Shown here: positions 2,515 through 7,668 of the stretch, one piece after another
How the letters are laid out: the number at the start of each line of letters is the position of its first letter
Numbering within the stretch: position 1 is the stretch's first letter
Origin: an uncultured Flavobacteriales bacterium
GTDB taxonomy: Bacteria; Bacteroidota; Bacteroidia; Flavobacteriales; BACL11
Length of the DNA: 64,000 bases
Reading direction: 5' to 3'
NCBI GenBank assembly: GCA_905478765.1
Contig: CAJQJY010000006.1
Span: 101,479 to 165,478, forward strand
Program-made: the position numbers and the translations under genes
Notes under the pieces: model-generated
Seen by the model: the letters and a program-made list of their open reading frames with translations, nothing else
Database searches by the model: none
What the model was told of the DNA's origin: nothing

Positions 2515-3132
2515 TTAAATCTTATCTATTCTATCTCTTTTAAATATTGAAATAGTAAAATTTTGATTAGTATTAAAAGGGGTAAAATGAACTTTCTTAA
2601 AAGAATCAATAACAGTAAAAGACCCTTTAAATTGTTTTTTCAAATCTAATTCAGAATATTTGCAAATTTCCAAACCACTACATTTATTTGGACCATCTTC
2701 TGAGAAGGTAGCTAACAACATATAATCAGAAATAGCATAATCCACTAGTTTGTTATATTTATTTTTATCTTTCTCATTTGTTAGAAAATGAAATACTGCT
2801 CTATCATGCCAAATATCATATTTATCTATTGGCTCAAATTCAGTTATATCAGAAACAATCCACTTTACTTTATTTGAATCCTTTCCAAGTCTTTCTTGTG
2901 CTCTTTTAATTGCATTCGTTGAAATATCCAACACAGTAATATCGATATAACCTAACTTAAGTAAATGATCAACTAAAAAACCATCTCCTCCACCAATATC
3001 AATAATAGATGCATCCTTTTTTAATCTTAATGATGCTATTAAAGCAAGAGAAGTCTGTGGTACCTGCTGAAACCAAGAAACCTCTTCCATTGCCTTGGTA
3101 GCATAAATATTGTCCCAATGTTTTTTACTCAT
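2515..3132 (-). CDS. Class I SAM-dependent methyltransferase
   Basis: Glycine-rich SAM motif I (ASIIDIGGGDGFLVDHLL), followed by VLDIS and WIVSDITEF. Confidence 0.85.
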   Translation of the reverse strand: MSKKHWDNIYATKAMEEVSWFQQVPQTSLALIASLRLKKDASIIDIGGGDGFLVDHLLKLGYIDITVLDISTNAIKRAQERLGKDSNKVKWIVSDITEFEPIDKYDIWHDRAVFHFLTNEKDKNKYNKLVDYAISDYMLLATFSEDGPNKCSGLEICKYSELDLKKQFKGSFTVIDSFKKVHFTPFNTNQNFTISIFKRDRIDKI

Positions 3133-3133
3133 T

Positions 3134-4531
3134 TTATAAAGTTGAAGGACATAATTCTACAGATAAAGGAAGTTGAGTTTTTTTAATCGCGGCAAAACCA
3201 CCCTCAATATTAGTAACATTATGAATTCCCTCTCTTTTTAAGAGTGAACAAGCAATAACAGAACGATACCCTCCTGCACAATGTACAAAATTTTCAGAAG
3301 TAGAATTTAGTTTTTTATTTTCCAAATCACCTAGTGGATTAAGTACCGCAGAGATAATATGCCGGCTTTTATATTCAGCTTCTTTTCTTACATCAATAAT
3401 ATCAATCACATTATCTGCTTGGTAAATTTCATCAAAATATTTAGCTGATATAGACGATATAGTTGCTAAATCATCTTGTTCCCAAACTTGAATACCACCA
3501 TTTAGATGCCCCAACACATTATCAAAACCTACACGAGATAAACGAGTAGCAACTTCTTCCAATCTATTTTTATCACATACTAATAAAATTGGGGTTGCTA
3601 CTTGTTTGATAATTGTGCCAACCCAAGGAGCAAAGCCACCATCAATGCCAATAAAAATAGAATTTGGAATAAAACCTTTTACAAAATCTGCAGCACTTCT
3701 TACATCTAAAATAATAACACCTGATTGTATTGATTTTTTTTTAAACTCCTCAACTGAAAGGGAAATATTTGCTTTAACAATATTATCATTTTTAGGGTTA
3801 TACCCTAGTTTGTTTAACGTTACATTTTCAGGGAAATAAGCTGGTGGAGGTAAGATTCCTTCTGTTACTTCTTGTATAAATTCTTGCTTAGTCATATCTG
3901 GACGCAAAGCATAGTTATTTACTTTTTCATAACCAATTGAGCCGATTGTTTCCTTGCTCATATTTTTTCCACAAGCAGAACCAGCACCATGCCCAGGATA
4001 CACAATTACCTCATCCGGTAAAGTCATAATTCTAGTCCTTAAACTATCAAATAACATTCCAGCTAAATCCTCTTGAGTTAAATCAGATTTCTGTGCTAAA
4101 TCAGGCCTACCTACATCCCCTAGAAACAAAGTATCTCCTGAAAACAAGGAAACCTCTTTTCCATTTTCATCAATAAGTAAATAAGAAGAACTTTCCATAG
4201 TATGCCCAGGTGTATGTAGTAATTTTATAGTTACATCACCTATTTTAAACTCTTGATTATCTTCTGCAACTAAACAATTAAAATTAGGTTTAGCAGTTGG
4301 TCCAAATACAATTTCTGCTCCTGTTTGCTGAGCCAATGTTAAATGACCACTTACAAAATCAGCATGAAAATGTGTTTCAAAAACATATTTAATTTTTGCT
4401 CCCCTATCAGCAGCCATAGTGATATAAGTTCCTACCTCACGTAGAGGGTCAATAACAACAGCATCTCCGTTACTTTCAATATAATAAGACCCTTGCGCTA
4501 AACAGTTTGTATAAATTTGTTCTACTTTCAT
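3134..4531 (-). CDS. MBL-fold metallo-hydrolase with two rhodanese domains (persulfide dioxygenase/ETHE1-like)
   Basis: FETHFHADFVSGH metal-binding motif; two C-terminal rhodanese domains, one with degenerate loop CDKNRLEE and one with active-type loop CAGGYRS. Confidence 0.88.
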   Translation of the reverse strand: MKVEQIYTNCLAQGSYYIESNGDAVVIDPLREVGTYITMAADRGAKIKYVFETHFHADFVSGHLTLAQQTGAEIVFGPTAKPNFNCLVAEDNQEFKIGDVTIKLLHTPGHTMESSSYLLIDENGKEVSLFSGDTLFLGDVGRPDLAQKSDLTQEDLAGMLFDSLRTRIMTLPDEVIVYPGHGAGSACGKNMSKETIGSIGYEKVNNYALRPDMTKQEFIQEVTEGILPPPAYFPENVTLNKLGYNPKNDNIVKANISLSVEEFKKKSIQSGVIILDVRSAADFVKGFIPNSIFIGIDGGFAPWVGTIIKQVATPILLVCDKNRLEEVATRLSRVGFDNVLGHLNGGIQVWEQDDLATISSISAKYFDEIYQADNVIDIIDVRKEAEYKSRHIISAVLNPLGDLENKKLNSTSENFVHCAGGYRSVIACSLLKREGIHNVTNIEGGFAAIKKTQLPLSVELCPSTL

Positions 4532-4532
4532 T

Positions 4533-5327
4533 TTAAATTAACTCTTTTAATAATATATATATTGCCGTTGCTAACACAAACCAGCCAAAGCCTTTTTTTA
4601 ATTTTTTGCCGTCAATAAAATTATTTAAGTAAATACCTAAAATAATTCCAATCATTGAAAGTCCCGCAAAAGTAAGAAGGAAGTCCCAAGCAATATCAAT
4701 ATTGCCTATATCTCCTAAAAATCCAATTAATGATTTTATTGCAATAATCATTAATGAAGTAGCTACTGCCTTTTTTATTGGTAAGTTAGCAAATAATACT
4801 AATGCTGGAATAATTAAAAAACCTCCACCTGCACCAACTAAACCAGTTAAAAGACCTATAACTAAACCTTCGATAATAATTAAAGGATAATTAAAATGCA
4901 CATCTTTATTCAATACTGCTACATTCCGTTCTCTTAACATACTAATAGATGCTGCCAACATGATAACTGCAAAGAAAATCATAACTAGCATATCCTTTGT
5001 AATGATAAAACTATCCAAATTAAGTACTACTTCAGGAATTGAAGGGACAATTAATTTTCTTGTTAAAAATACTGAAATAAAAGAAGGTATAGCAAAAACT
5101 ATACCCACTTTATATTCAATCATACCTTTTTGTGCATTTCTTATCGTTCCAACTAAAGCTGTACTGCCTACAATAAATAAGGAATATGCAGTAGCCGTAA
5201 CCGGACTTACACTTAATAAATATACCAAAACTGGTACCGTTAATATAGACCCACCACCACCAGTTAATCCCAAAACAGTTCCAATAACAAGTGCCCCAAC
5301 AAATCCATATAAATTAAGTGCTTCCAT
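4533..5327 (-). CDS. TauE/SafE family sulfite/organosulfonate exporter
   Basis: Multi-TM protein with duplicated LGLTGGGGSILTVPVLVYLL / GLVGAGGGFLIIPALVLF motifs. Confidence 0.85.
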   Translation of the reverse strand: MEALNLYGFVGALVIGTVLGLTGGGGSILTVPVLVYLLSVSPVTATAYSLFIVGSTALVGTIRNAQKGMIEYKVGIVFAIPSFISVFLTRKLIVPSIPEVVLNLDSFIITKDMLVMIFFAVIMLAASISMLRERNVAVLNKDVHFNYPLIIIEGLVIGLLTGLVGAGGGFLIIPALVLFANLPIKKAVATSLMIIAIKSLIGFLGDIGNIDIAWDFLLTFAGLSMIGIILGIYLNNFIDGKKLKKGFGWFVLATAIYILLKELI

Positions 5328-5336
5328 ATGAACTAA

Positions 5337-5612
5337 TTATAATCTTTGCAAATCAACACTCATCCATCCTCCTCCATTATATACTTTTTCAAAACCATTT
5401 GATGAAAGGTATGAAACTGCTTGTCCACTTCTGTTTCCAGACTCACAACACATTACCATAGGCTGCAATGCTTTAAGCTCTTCAATTCTATCAACTAACT
5501 CATCCAAAGGAACATTAACAGAACCTGAAACATTACCTCCCATAAACTCACCTGGAGTTCTAACGTCCACAATTGTAATTGCAGGATCATTAATTAAATC
5601 TTGTAAATTCAT
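5337..5612 (-). CDS. Single-domain rhodanese-like sulfurtransferase
   Basis: VDVRTPGEFMGGNVSGSVNVPLDEL and catalytic loop CESGNRS. Confidence 0.88.
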   Translation of the reverse strand: MNLQDLINDPAITIVDVRTPGEFMGGNVSGSVNVPLDELVDRIEELKALQPMVMCCESGNRSGQAVSYLSSNGFEKVYNGGGWMSVDLQRL

Positions 5613-5669
5613 TTTTCTTTTTTTTAAAATTATTTATGATACAAATTAACAAACTATTTAATTCTATAT

Positions 5670-5685
5670 TGTAATATTTGTAACA
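5670..5685. promoter_or_regulatory. Putative Crp/Fnr-family operator (imperfect dyad TGTAATATTTGTAACA)
   Basis: 13/16 identical to the perfect palindrome at 7002-7017; starts 58 bp upstream of the rhodanese ATG at 5612. Confidence 0.5.
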
Positions 5686-5725
5686 AAATAGAAGAAAACT
5701 TGAACATATAAAATAGTAGCTTTTA

Positions 5726-6442
5726 CTACAATTTAATTTTATTTAACAACTCTTTTTTATCAATCGTACCAACATGCCTGAATTTCTCAATACCATCTTT
5801 AAATATAATAAAAACAGGCACCCCTCTTACTTTGTATTTTCTCACTAACTCTTTATTAGTATCAGCATCAATAAAAACAATTTTTACATCCTTATTCTCT
5901 TTTTTTATTTCTTCAATAACTGGCTTCATCTTTTTACAAGGAACACACCACTGCGTACTAAAATCAACTAAAACAACATTATTACTTTCTATAATATCAG
6001 AAAATTCAATAACTGAAATAGATTCTTGTTTTTTGAAAACCTTGTCTTTTGTTTTAACAAATTTAAAATCAGCTAATTTCCAGGCGCCGAAACCTCCTAT
6101 AAGATTAAACACTTTATAAAAACCTAATTCTTTCATTTTAGCTACAGTTTTAGAGCTTCTTCCTCCGCTTGCACAATACACATATACAGGCATATCTTTT
6201 GGCAATAAATTCAATTTAGATGTAAAATCAGATGCATAAAAATCAATATTTGTTGCATCTTGAATATGCCCTTTATTTACCTCATCAATAGTTCTAACAT
6301 CTAAAATAATTCCTTCATCAGAATTAATTAGTTTGCTAAATTCTTTAGCATCAACATTATTAACTACTTGAGCTTCAACTGGCCCTAATGAACAGGACAC
6401 AAAAACAAAACTTACTAAACTATAAATTATTTTTTTTATCAT
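5726..6442 (-). CDS. Exported rhodanese-thioredoxin fusion (probable lipoprotein)
   Basis: Signal/lipobox-like N terminus (MIKKIIYSLVSFVFVSCS), rhodanese loop CASGGRS, thioredoxin motif WCVPCKKMKP. Confidence 0.85.
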   Translation of the reverse strand: MIKKIIYSLVSFVFVSCSLGPVEAQVVNNVDAKEFSKLINSDEGIILDVRTIDEVNKGHIQDATNIDFYASDFTSKLNLLPKDMPVYVYCASGGRSSKTVAKMKELGFYKVFNLIGGFGAWKLADFKFVKTKDKVFKKQESISVIEFSDIIESNNVVLVDFSTQWCVPCKKMKPVIEEIKKENKDVKIVFIDADTNKELVRKYKVRGVPVFIIFKDGIEKFRHVGTIDKKELLNKIKL

Positions 6443-6445
6443 TAT

Positions 6446-6634
6446 TTATTTTAAAAAATCTCTTATTAAATCAAAAACTACACCTCCCATAAACATACCA
6501 TAAAGAGTACTTTTATAGCATACTGAAGTTATAGCACATGTACTTGTATTGCACCCAATATATTTCCAGTACAAATATCCTGATATTCCTCCAATAATCA
6601 ATCCAAATACTATCATAACTTTTCTTTTAGGCAT
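6446..6634 (-). CDS. DUF6132-like small membrane protein
   Basis: 62 aa, GGISGYLYWKYIGCNTSTCAITS...LYGMFMGGVVFD pattern. Confidence 0.65.
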   Translation of the reverse strand: MPKRKVMIVFGLIIGGISGYLYWKYIGCNTSTCAITSVCYKSTLYGMFMGGVVFDLIRDFLK

Positions 6635-6945
6635 TAGCTGCTTAATTTTCTATTTAAACTACTCCAACCTCCTCCGTTATAAGCATTGACACCTCTTGAC
6701 TTTGCATAAGAAGTAGCTTGCCCACTTCTCACGCCTGAAGCGCAACAAAAAATAACTGACTTATTTAAATTCTCTAATTTTTTAATCTTGGATTTAATCT
6801 TATCTAAAGGAACATTAGTTGAGCCATTAATATGTCCAGAATTAAACTCTCCTGGAGTTCTTACATCAATTAAAATTGCACCATCCTTTATCAAATGATT
6901 ATAGTCAGTTACCTTGCTTCCAAAAAGTCTCTTTAATATTGACAT
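6634..6945 (-). CDS. Single-domain rhodanese-like sulfurtransferase
   Basis: IDVRTPGEFNSGHINGSTNVPLDKI and catalytic loop CASGVRS. Confidence 0.88.
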   Translation of the reverse strand: MSILKRLFGSKVTDYNHLIKDGAILIDVRTPGEFNSGHINGSTNVPLDKIKSKIKKLENLNKSVIFCCASGVRSGQATSYAKSRGVNAYNGGGWSSLNRKLSS

Positions 6946-7001
6946 TTTATTTAATTTTTAAGTTTGATAGTGCAAAGAAAAGAACAATAAAATAAATATA
7001 A

Positions 7002-7017
7002 TGTAACAATTGTTACA
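7002..7017. promoter_or_regulatory. Putative Crp/Fnr-family operator, perfect 16-bp palindrome TGTAACAATTGTTACA
   Basis: Perfect dyad in the gap between the Crp/Fnr gene and the rhodanese operon, 57 bp upstream of the ATG at 6945. Confidence 0.65.
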
Positions 7018-7032
7018 GAGTAAATTTAGCTG

Positions 7033-7668
7033 TTAAAAATCAAGAATTTCAATTTGATTTCTATGAAGTTTGATATTTCCATCTATCTCCAATTTTTTAA
7101 GAATTCTGCTCACTACAACACGAGATGTATTTAATTCTAATGAAATGGTATTATGAGTAATTTTTAAAAATTCAGATTTATTTGCAATTACTTTATTCTT
7201 AAGGTATTTAAGTATTCTGTCATTCATATTCATAAAAGCCAATGAATCAACTGCTTCTAACATCTCTACAAAACGGTTGTTATAAGAACCAAATACAAAC
7301 GCCCTCCAACTCTTATAATGCAACCAGTCCTCAAGCTTATGGACTGGTATAAGTAACAATTCAGAATCTCTTTCAGCAATAGCTTTAATCTCGCTTTTAG
7401 CTCCTTTCATGCAACAATTTAATGTCATTGCACAAGTATCTCCACCTTCAATAAAATACAAGATATAATCATCCCCATCATCATCAGTTCTAAAAACATT
7501 GATAGCACCAGTAATAATTAAAGGGATAAAAGTCATTTCCTGACCTATATCTATTAGATAGTCGTTCTTCTTAACTTCTTTTAACTGAGCAACAATAGAC
7601 ACCTCATCTAGCAATGCTTTCTCAAATAGAGAAGAAAAATTAGCTTTAACTAAAACTTTTATATCCAT
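7033..7668 (-). CDS. Crp/Fnr family transcriptional regulator
   Basis: Cyclic-nucleotide-binding-like N-terminal domain and C-terminal HTH (THNTISLELNTSRVVVSRILKKLEIDGNIKLHRNQIEIL). Confidence 0.85.
   Translation of the reverse strand: MDIKVLVKANFSSLFEKALLDEVSIVAQLKEVKKNDYLIDIGQEMTFIPLIITGAINVFRTDDDGDDYILYFIEGGDTCAMTLNCCMKGAKSEIKAIAERDSELLLIPVHKLEDWLHYKSWRAFVFGSYNNRFVEMLEAVDSLAFMNMNDRILKYLKNKVIANKSEFLKITHNTISLELNTSRVVVSRILKKLEIDGNIKLHRNQIEILDF

Follow-up and report, generated by a model that had tools for sequence, protein, structure and literature searches.

The window, a stretch of 64,000 nucleotides, belongs to an uncultured Flavobacteriales bacterium with a genome of 1.6 Mb (99% complete), and the named genomes closest to it are MAGs of uncultured Flavobacteriales from the sea. 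On the minus strand a crp/fnr gene, a palindrome, a first operon, a second site and a second operon follow each other in this order. The crp/fnr gene (7033..7668) encodes a regulator of 211 aa with a cNMP-like domain and a Crp HTH; both domains (PF00027 and PF13545) score over the cut-off and place the protein in the Crp/Fnr superfamily. It is followed by operator 1, the perfect palindrome TGTAACAATTGTTACA (7002..7017), and by the −7 box-like element TTTCTTTG of promoter 1 (6973..6980). Operon 1 is led by a gene for a rhodanese of 103 aa (6634..6945; PF00581). The next genes code for a small DUF6132-like membrane protein of 62 aa (6446..6634), which matches PF19628 weakly, just under the cut-off, and is kept in the locus of relatives, and for a rhodanese-thioredoxin fusion of 238 aa (5726..6442; PF00581 and PF00085).

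Operator 2 (5670..5685, minus strand) is imperfect and reads TGTTACAAATATTACA on the gene strand, with 2 mismatches to TGTAACNNNNGTTACA. The −7 box-like element of promoter 2, TTAATTTG, is found at 5642..5649, and a rhodanese of 91 aa (5337..5612; PF00581) leads operon 2. Further genes on the same strand encode a TauE/SafE-type sulfite exporter of 264 aa (4533..5327; PF01925) and a persulfide-dioxygenase-like protein of 465 aa with a metallo-beta-lactamase (MBL) domain and two rhodanese domains (3134..4531; PF00753 and twice PF00581). The latter is not the Blh equivalog (DUF442-ETHE1 order), since the MBL domain precedes the two rhodanese domains and the score for NF040641 is far under the cut-off (54 bits versus 625). 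A gene for a SAM-dependent methyltransferase of 205 aa (2515..3132; PF08242/PF13649), which is retained in relatives, is probably the last gene of operon 2. The preliminary description had spoken of two rhodanese operons. The rhodaneses were confirmed, but the gene set is broader and constitutes a persulfide/sulfite module, which includes the rhodanese-thioredoxin fusion, the MBL-rhodanese protein and TauE. A type III sulfide:quinone reductase, the only type that was sought, was not found in the window genome despite the presence of the persulfide-dioxygenase-like gene. The region after the sulfur operon (3-2466) harbours, as judged by appearance, a TonB-dependent receptor look-alike with a carboxypeptidase-like start, and also a Cys-rich HYC_CC_PP-like protein; this neighbourhood is retained in the relatives L029-L032.

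The two operator sites in the window genome

The sequences of both 16-mers and their positions were correct to the letter in the preliminary description, as were their identity at 13 of 16 positions and their distances of 57 and 58 bp to the ATGs at 6945 and 5612. Both minus-strand elements, at 6973-6980 and 5642-5649, are indeed one-mismatch versions of the −7 box TAnnTTTG, and the distance from the dyad centre to the G of this motif is 36.5 bp for site 1 and 35.5 bp for site 2.

All genome-wide statements for the window genome refer to pattern searches with reversed-pattern controls. The exact sequence TGTAACNNNNGTTACA occurs a single time in the 1.6-Mb genome, at 7002-7017. Other sites with no more than one mismatch to either consensus were considered as additional members of the regulon and rejected, as all of them are located inside ORFs. 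When up to two mismatches were allowed, 107 matches were obtained versus 88 for the control, which is close to background. A background frequency of the motif throughout the genome had been named as an argument against a regulatory role: the exact palindrome withstands this argument by being unique, while at the level of two mismatches it applies. Of the two-mismatch sites that were examined, the intergenic ones (L010, L023, L184) were set aside, since no adjoining sulfur gene was seen. In the window genome the regulon appears to be essentially confined to this one locus.

A scoring matrix was built from 32 loci, all of them outside the family of the window genome, which avoids the circularity of testing the two sites with a consensus of their own. 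With this matrix, 7002 came first and 5670 fourth when every 16-mer of the window was scored; when TTTG at the conserved spacing was required in addition, 7002 ranked first and 5670 second. Both switch sites upstream of the sulfur-detoxification genes are real, and 7002 is the stronger one.

Conservation of operator and promoter in relatives and across the class

In the family of the window genome, 52 genomes were sampled and divided by a cut-off of E ≤ 1e-30 for regulator orthologs into 8 carriers and 44 non-carriers. The exact palindrome was present in 7/8 carriers versus 1/44 non-carriers (Fisher p = 5e-7); the sole match in a non-carrier lies within a coding gene, and the eighth carrier has a copy with one mismatch. 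Operator 1 is kept in L029-L035. At the orthologous loci it is positioned 11-16 bp behind the stop codon of the regulator gene despite a changing next gene, which can encode a rhodanese, a thioredoxin or a DUF983 protein, and SulP in a more distant locus. Along with the operator, the TTTG-ending promoter element is retained at its fixed spacing, and the −7 box of promoter 1 reads TTTTATTTG or TTTAATTTG in relatives. Operator 1, promoter and regulator gene are conserved together and therefore represent one travelling unit. In one relative, a perfect operator with an in-register TTTG (L034:9291-9306) was also seen in front of a gene for a secreted multicopper oxidase (Cu-oxidase domains and Por secretion tail), hinting at a link between sulfur and copper in the regulon of this relative.

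For the class Bacteroidia, 395 genomes were sampled (homolog cut-off E ≤ 1e-25; 234 carriers and 161 others), and 80 neighbourhoods around regulator homologs were examined. The genes that follow the regulator gene on the same strand often code for a persulfide dioxygenase, TauE, SulP or a rhodanese. Across the class the operator recurs as TGTRAC-N4-GTYAC. The pattern NGTNAC-N4-GTNACN together with an in-register TTTG was detected behind 28/42 regulators with downstream sulfur genes versus 4/40 without such genes (p = 1e-7), and a control pattern of the same shape gave no match behind the regulators; in 14 of the 42 sulfur-linked loci, the operator is missing from the position immediately after the regulator gene. 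Dyad centre and TTTG (measured to its G) are 36.5 bp apart in 26/42 non-family loci and 37.5 bp apart in 7 more, and a full TAnnTTTG at one of these two distances was present in 19/42. In 13/42 class loci the operator includes the stop codon of the regulator gene (offset −4), the stop TAA or TGA representing bases 3-5 in TG[TAA]C or TG[TGA]C, so that the regulator gene ends within the operator of the operon that follows (L090, L091, L094, L100, L121, L124, L130, L138, L144, L145, L148, L149, L162).

In Flavobacterium psychrophilum, mapping of transcription starts placed TAnnTTTG at −12 to −5 (PMC9723704). Combined with this position, the offset of 36.5 bp puts the dyad at −41.5; for the window the predicted dyad centres are at −41.5 (site 1) and −40.5 (site 2). 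The predicted location of site 1 thus coincides with that of a class II Crp-type dyad. The preliminary description had suggested a class II activator position, and the conservation of the −41.5 register throughout the class, with 26/42 non-family loci at exactly 36.5 bp, supports this prediction. A dyad at −41.5 that replaces the −33 element is the geometry of class II activation by Crp/Fnr proteins. It is improbable that the regulator acts instead as a repressor, with the dyad at −41.5 blocking the polymerase until a sulfur species releases the protein, as for BigR, SqrR and CstR. Known regulators of similar operons do repress (BigR, PMC5823870), but a fixed −41.5 register in promoters without a −33 element matches the class II activator, and repressor sites do not need a register conserved to 1 bp in a whole class.

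Blind to genes, the 395 class genomes were searched for the composite pattern TGTAACNNNNGTTAC-N26/27-TTTG. It was present in 80/234 regulator carriers versus 14/161 other genomes (p = 2e-9); by hand count of the tables there were about 107 matches in carriers versus 15 for the reversed control, and 17 versus 11 in the other genomes. The composite precedes genes for sulfide:quinone reductase (L188, L192, L237), persulfide dioxygenase (L197, L200, L201, L211, L220), TauE (L208, L209), SulP (L219, L225), YeiH (L189), YeeE (L215) and rhodanese (L235), and also DUF983 and DUF302 genes. Sulfur genes behind the motif, as the preliminary description would predict, are seen at the composite hits of other genomes. 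The composite was also observed upstream of genes for TolC-family-like outer-membrane efflux proteins (L223, L226, L232, L234; a family scan was applied to L223 only); these proteins may be components of metal efflux.

Palindromes or terminator-like repeats that arise by chance in AT-rich DNA have practically no probability as an explanation. The genome is AT-rich, and 22 matches with three mismatches in the window face 15.6 expected ones; this is countered by the conservation, by the co-occurrence with the regulator and by same-shape controls near zero. For site 1 a chance origin is refuted by its uniqueness, the co-occurrence in the family and the class-wide spacing.

The situation differs for site 5670, which cannot be claimed by its motif alone because the two-mismatch level is near the reversed control. 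It is supported by its position, by the spacing to the promoter and by a perfect counterpart in a relative: L032 carries TGTAACAAATGTTACA at the same position, with TTTG 36.5 bp away. In L029, the closest relative, a deletion of about 10 nt removes site 2, while the −7 region remains (a TTATTTG region is kept in L029 and L032). Second operators before TauE or persulfide dioxygenase genes within one locus were found in L090, L092, L098, L132 and L167, and multiple operators per locus are a general feature (56 composites versus 0 for the control; 12 loci with at least two). It is a serious, though not the favoured, possibility that operator 2 is a decayed or never strong copy that has no present function, and that transcription of operon 2 depends on promoter 1 or on a promoter that is constitutive. 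The two mismatches in the symmetric core, the deletion in L029 next to a persisting −7 region and the near-background frequency of the motif would fit decay. The perfect site at equal place and spacing in L032, the second rank in the window on the joint operator and TTTG score, and the recurrence of internal second operators elsewhere argue against it. As this alternative concerns only the second site, it leaves the explanation of site 1 standing. We judge site 2 to be real by descent, yet weak or fading; it appears to be the weaker and lineage-variable site, and its present function is uncertain.

Predicted operator recognition and possible signal perception by the Crp/Fnr protein

The AF2 model of the regulator has a pLDDT of 87, and its top PDB matches are all Crp/Fnr proteins. 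One other protein of the window genome, a 191-aa open frame (G000:C2:1574-1840), contains a cNMP-binding domain. The recognition helix of the regulator, SRVVVSR, aligns to SRETVGR of CRP, which gives a predicted R-x4-R recognition helix next to a conserved palindrome. CRP with Val at position 181 accepts A:T at base 4, as known from classical CRP genetics. In wild-type CRP, Arg180 reads G2, and Glu181 together with Arg185 reads the G4:C4 pair of TGTGA, Glu181 contacting the C of this pair (PMC11253593). In the homologs the residue equivalent to Glu181 is either Val or Glu and tracks the base of the half-site, A or G, respectively. In the set of 38 homologs that have an operator, base 4 was G in one or both half-sites for 8/9 proteins with Glu and 1/29 with Val (p = 2e-6), L167 being an exception to this covariation. 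On the tree, residue and base change five times each; 3 of 4 independent pairs were concordant and 0 opposite, for which the sign test is not significant. The covariation is suggestive of direct recognition of the operator by the adjacent protein.

There is a small probability that a different Crp/Fnr protein occupies the sites, either the second cNMP-binding protein of the window genome or, in relatives, a protein of the HcpR type. Where a close ortholog is lacking (L202, L205, L213), the composite was also observed before hcp and 4Fe-4S protein genes, pointing to recognition of a similar sequence by related regulators of the HcpR type. The operator, in turn, follows the ortholog both in the family (7/8 versus 1/44) and in the class, it is physically tied to the regulator gene through the overlapped stop codon in 13 loci, and its half-site base tracks the recognition helix of the adjacent protein. 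Co-occurrence, class-wide conservation and covariation all favour the adjacent Crp/Fnr protein as the probable cognate regulator, as proposed in the preliminary description.

Three cysteines are conserved among 91 homologs: Cys79 in 90/91, Cys85 in 86/91 and Cys86 in 78/91. They are located where cAMP-binding CRPs carry the phosphate-binding cassette, which is replaced by TCAMTLxCCM, with a one-residue uncertainty of the register there. The position of E72 is occupied by T or S, T127 is changed to M or L and S128 to L. Sensing of cyclic AMP was rejected, as the cAMP-contact residues of CRP are not retained, and so was FNR-type [4Fe-4S] sensing of oxygen, which uses a cluster of N-terminal Cys residues and one Cys of the barrel, since the window protein has no N-terminal Cys; any Cys within residues 1-40 occurs in 11/91 homologs. 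A persulfide-responsive thiol switch, in which persulfidation of regulatory cysteines would alter the affinity for DNA, would match the target genes, and the Cys trio is compatible with such a switch. The trio also occurs in homologs without adjoining sulfur genes, so that the sulfur signal is only inferred.

Proposed model and comparison with known regulators

Taking all lines of evidence together, it is very probable that the locus encodes a so far uncharacterised Crp/Fnr protein that acts as class II activator of genes for the detoxification of reactive sulfur, with operator 7002 and the weaker operator 5670. The 7033-7668 product would bind as a dimeric activator to TGTAACNNNNGTTACA centred at −41.5, where the dyad would stand in for the −33 element and RNA polymerase would be recruited. 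Its target would be operon 1 with the rhodanese/thioredoxin genes (6945 to 5726) and, more weakly, operon 2 with the genes for rhodanese, TauE and persulfide dioxygenase (5612 to about 2515). The encoded route would lead from sulfane sulfur to the persulfide dioxygenase, followed by export of sulfite. As signal we propose reactive sulfur species (persulfide/polysulfide), which may be read by Cys79/Cys85/Cys86. The operator, the promoter spacing, the conservation, the gene linkage and the residue-base covariation are properties of the sequences, from which we infer binding, activation, the signal and that site 2 is active. The small sulfur regulon suggested in the preliminary description is supported by these comparisons, and across the class the regulon would mostly serve the detoxification of sulfur. 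Its second site in the window is a weak one and varies between lineages.

More tentatively, and about evenly balanced with a slight leaning to doubt, Bacteroidia may possess a dedicated Crp/Fnr clade that senses reactive sulfur through Cys79/Cys85/Cys86 in a rebuilt cyclic-nucleotide pocket and switches genes for SQR, persulfide dioxygenase, TauE, SulP and rhodanese from −41.5. Direct sensing of sulfur would be the surprising part of this reading. If true, it would add a type of reactive-sulfur sensor that is absent from a review on reactive sulfur, in which no Crp/Fnr protein is named as sensor (PMC9774590). In the full-text literature outside subscription journals we found no Crp/Fnr regulator paired with rhodanese or persulfide genes in Bacteroidota.

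With the Crp/Fnr superfamily, and with class II promoters of E. coli CRP in particular, the system shares the domain order, the fold, the 16-bp palindrome, the half-site frame TGTNA and the predicted dyad position of −41.5. It differs in the half-site TGTAAC instead of TGTGA, in Val at the position of Glu181, in the loss of the cAMP-pocket residues, in the Bacteroidota −7 box TAnnTTTG and in sulfur genes as putative dedicated targets. HcpR, a heme-binding regulator of nitrosative stress that controls hcp/nrf genes (PMC13370916), is likewise a member of the Crp family and occurs in the same phylum and in others, and a similar operator with TTTG is found before hcp in genomes without a close ortholog; here, adjacent sulfur genes rather than hcp are linked to the regulator, and the Cys trio is present in addition.

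Apart from FisR, the reactive-sulfur sensors described to date are for the most part repressors with different folds. BigR/SqrR (ArsR type) and CstR (CsoR type) are persulfide-responsive, while thiol sensing is only suspected here, and the BigR operon likewise has adjoining genes for persulfide dioxygenase, rhodanese and TauE (PMC5823870). These proteins are repressors of unrelated folds, in contrast to a Crp/Fnr protein at a predicted activator position. FisR of Cupriavidus and Acinetobacter has three conserved cysteines and activates SQR/PDO genes (PMC9774590), as predicted here, but belongs to an unrelated protein family and uses a sigma54 enhancer mechanism, whereas a class II mechanism with the housekeeping sigma factor is predicted for the present system. 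The regulator would provide a concrete candidate for the control of sulfide/persulfide homeostasis in Bacteroidota that are abundant in the sea and in soil. It is found class-wide, its operator is defined and its promoter register constant, and the residue-base rule can be put to the test, for which culturable flavobacteria are suitable.
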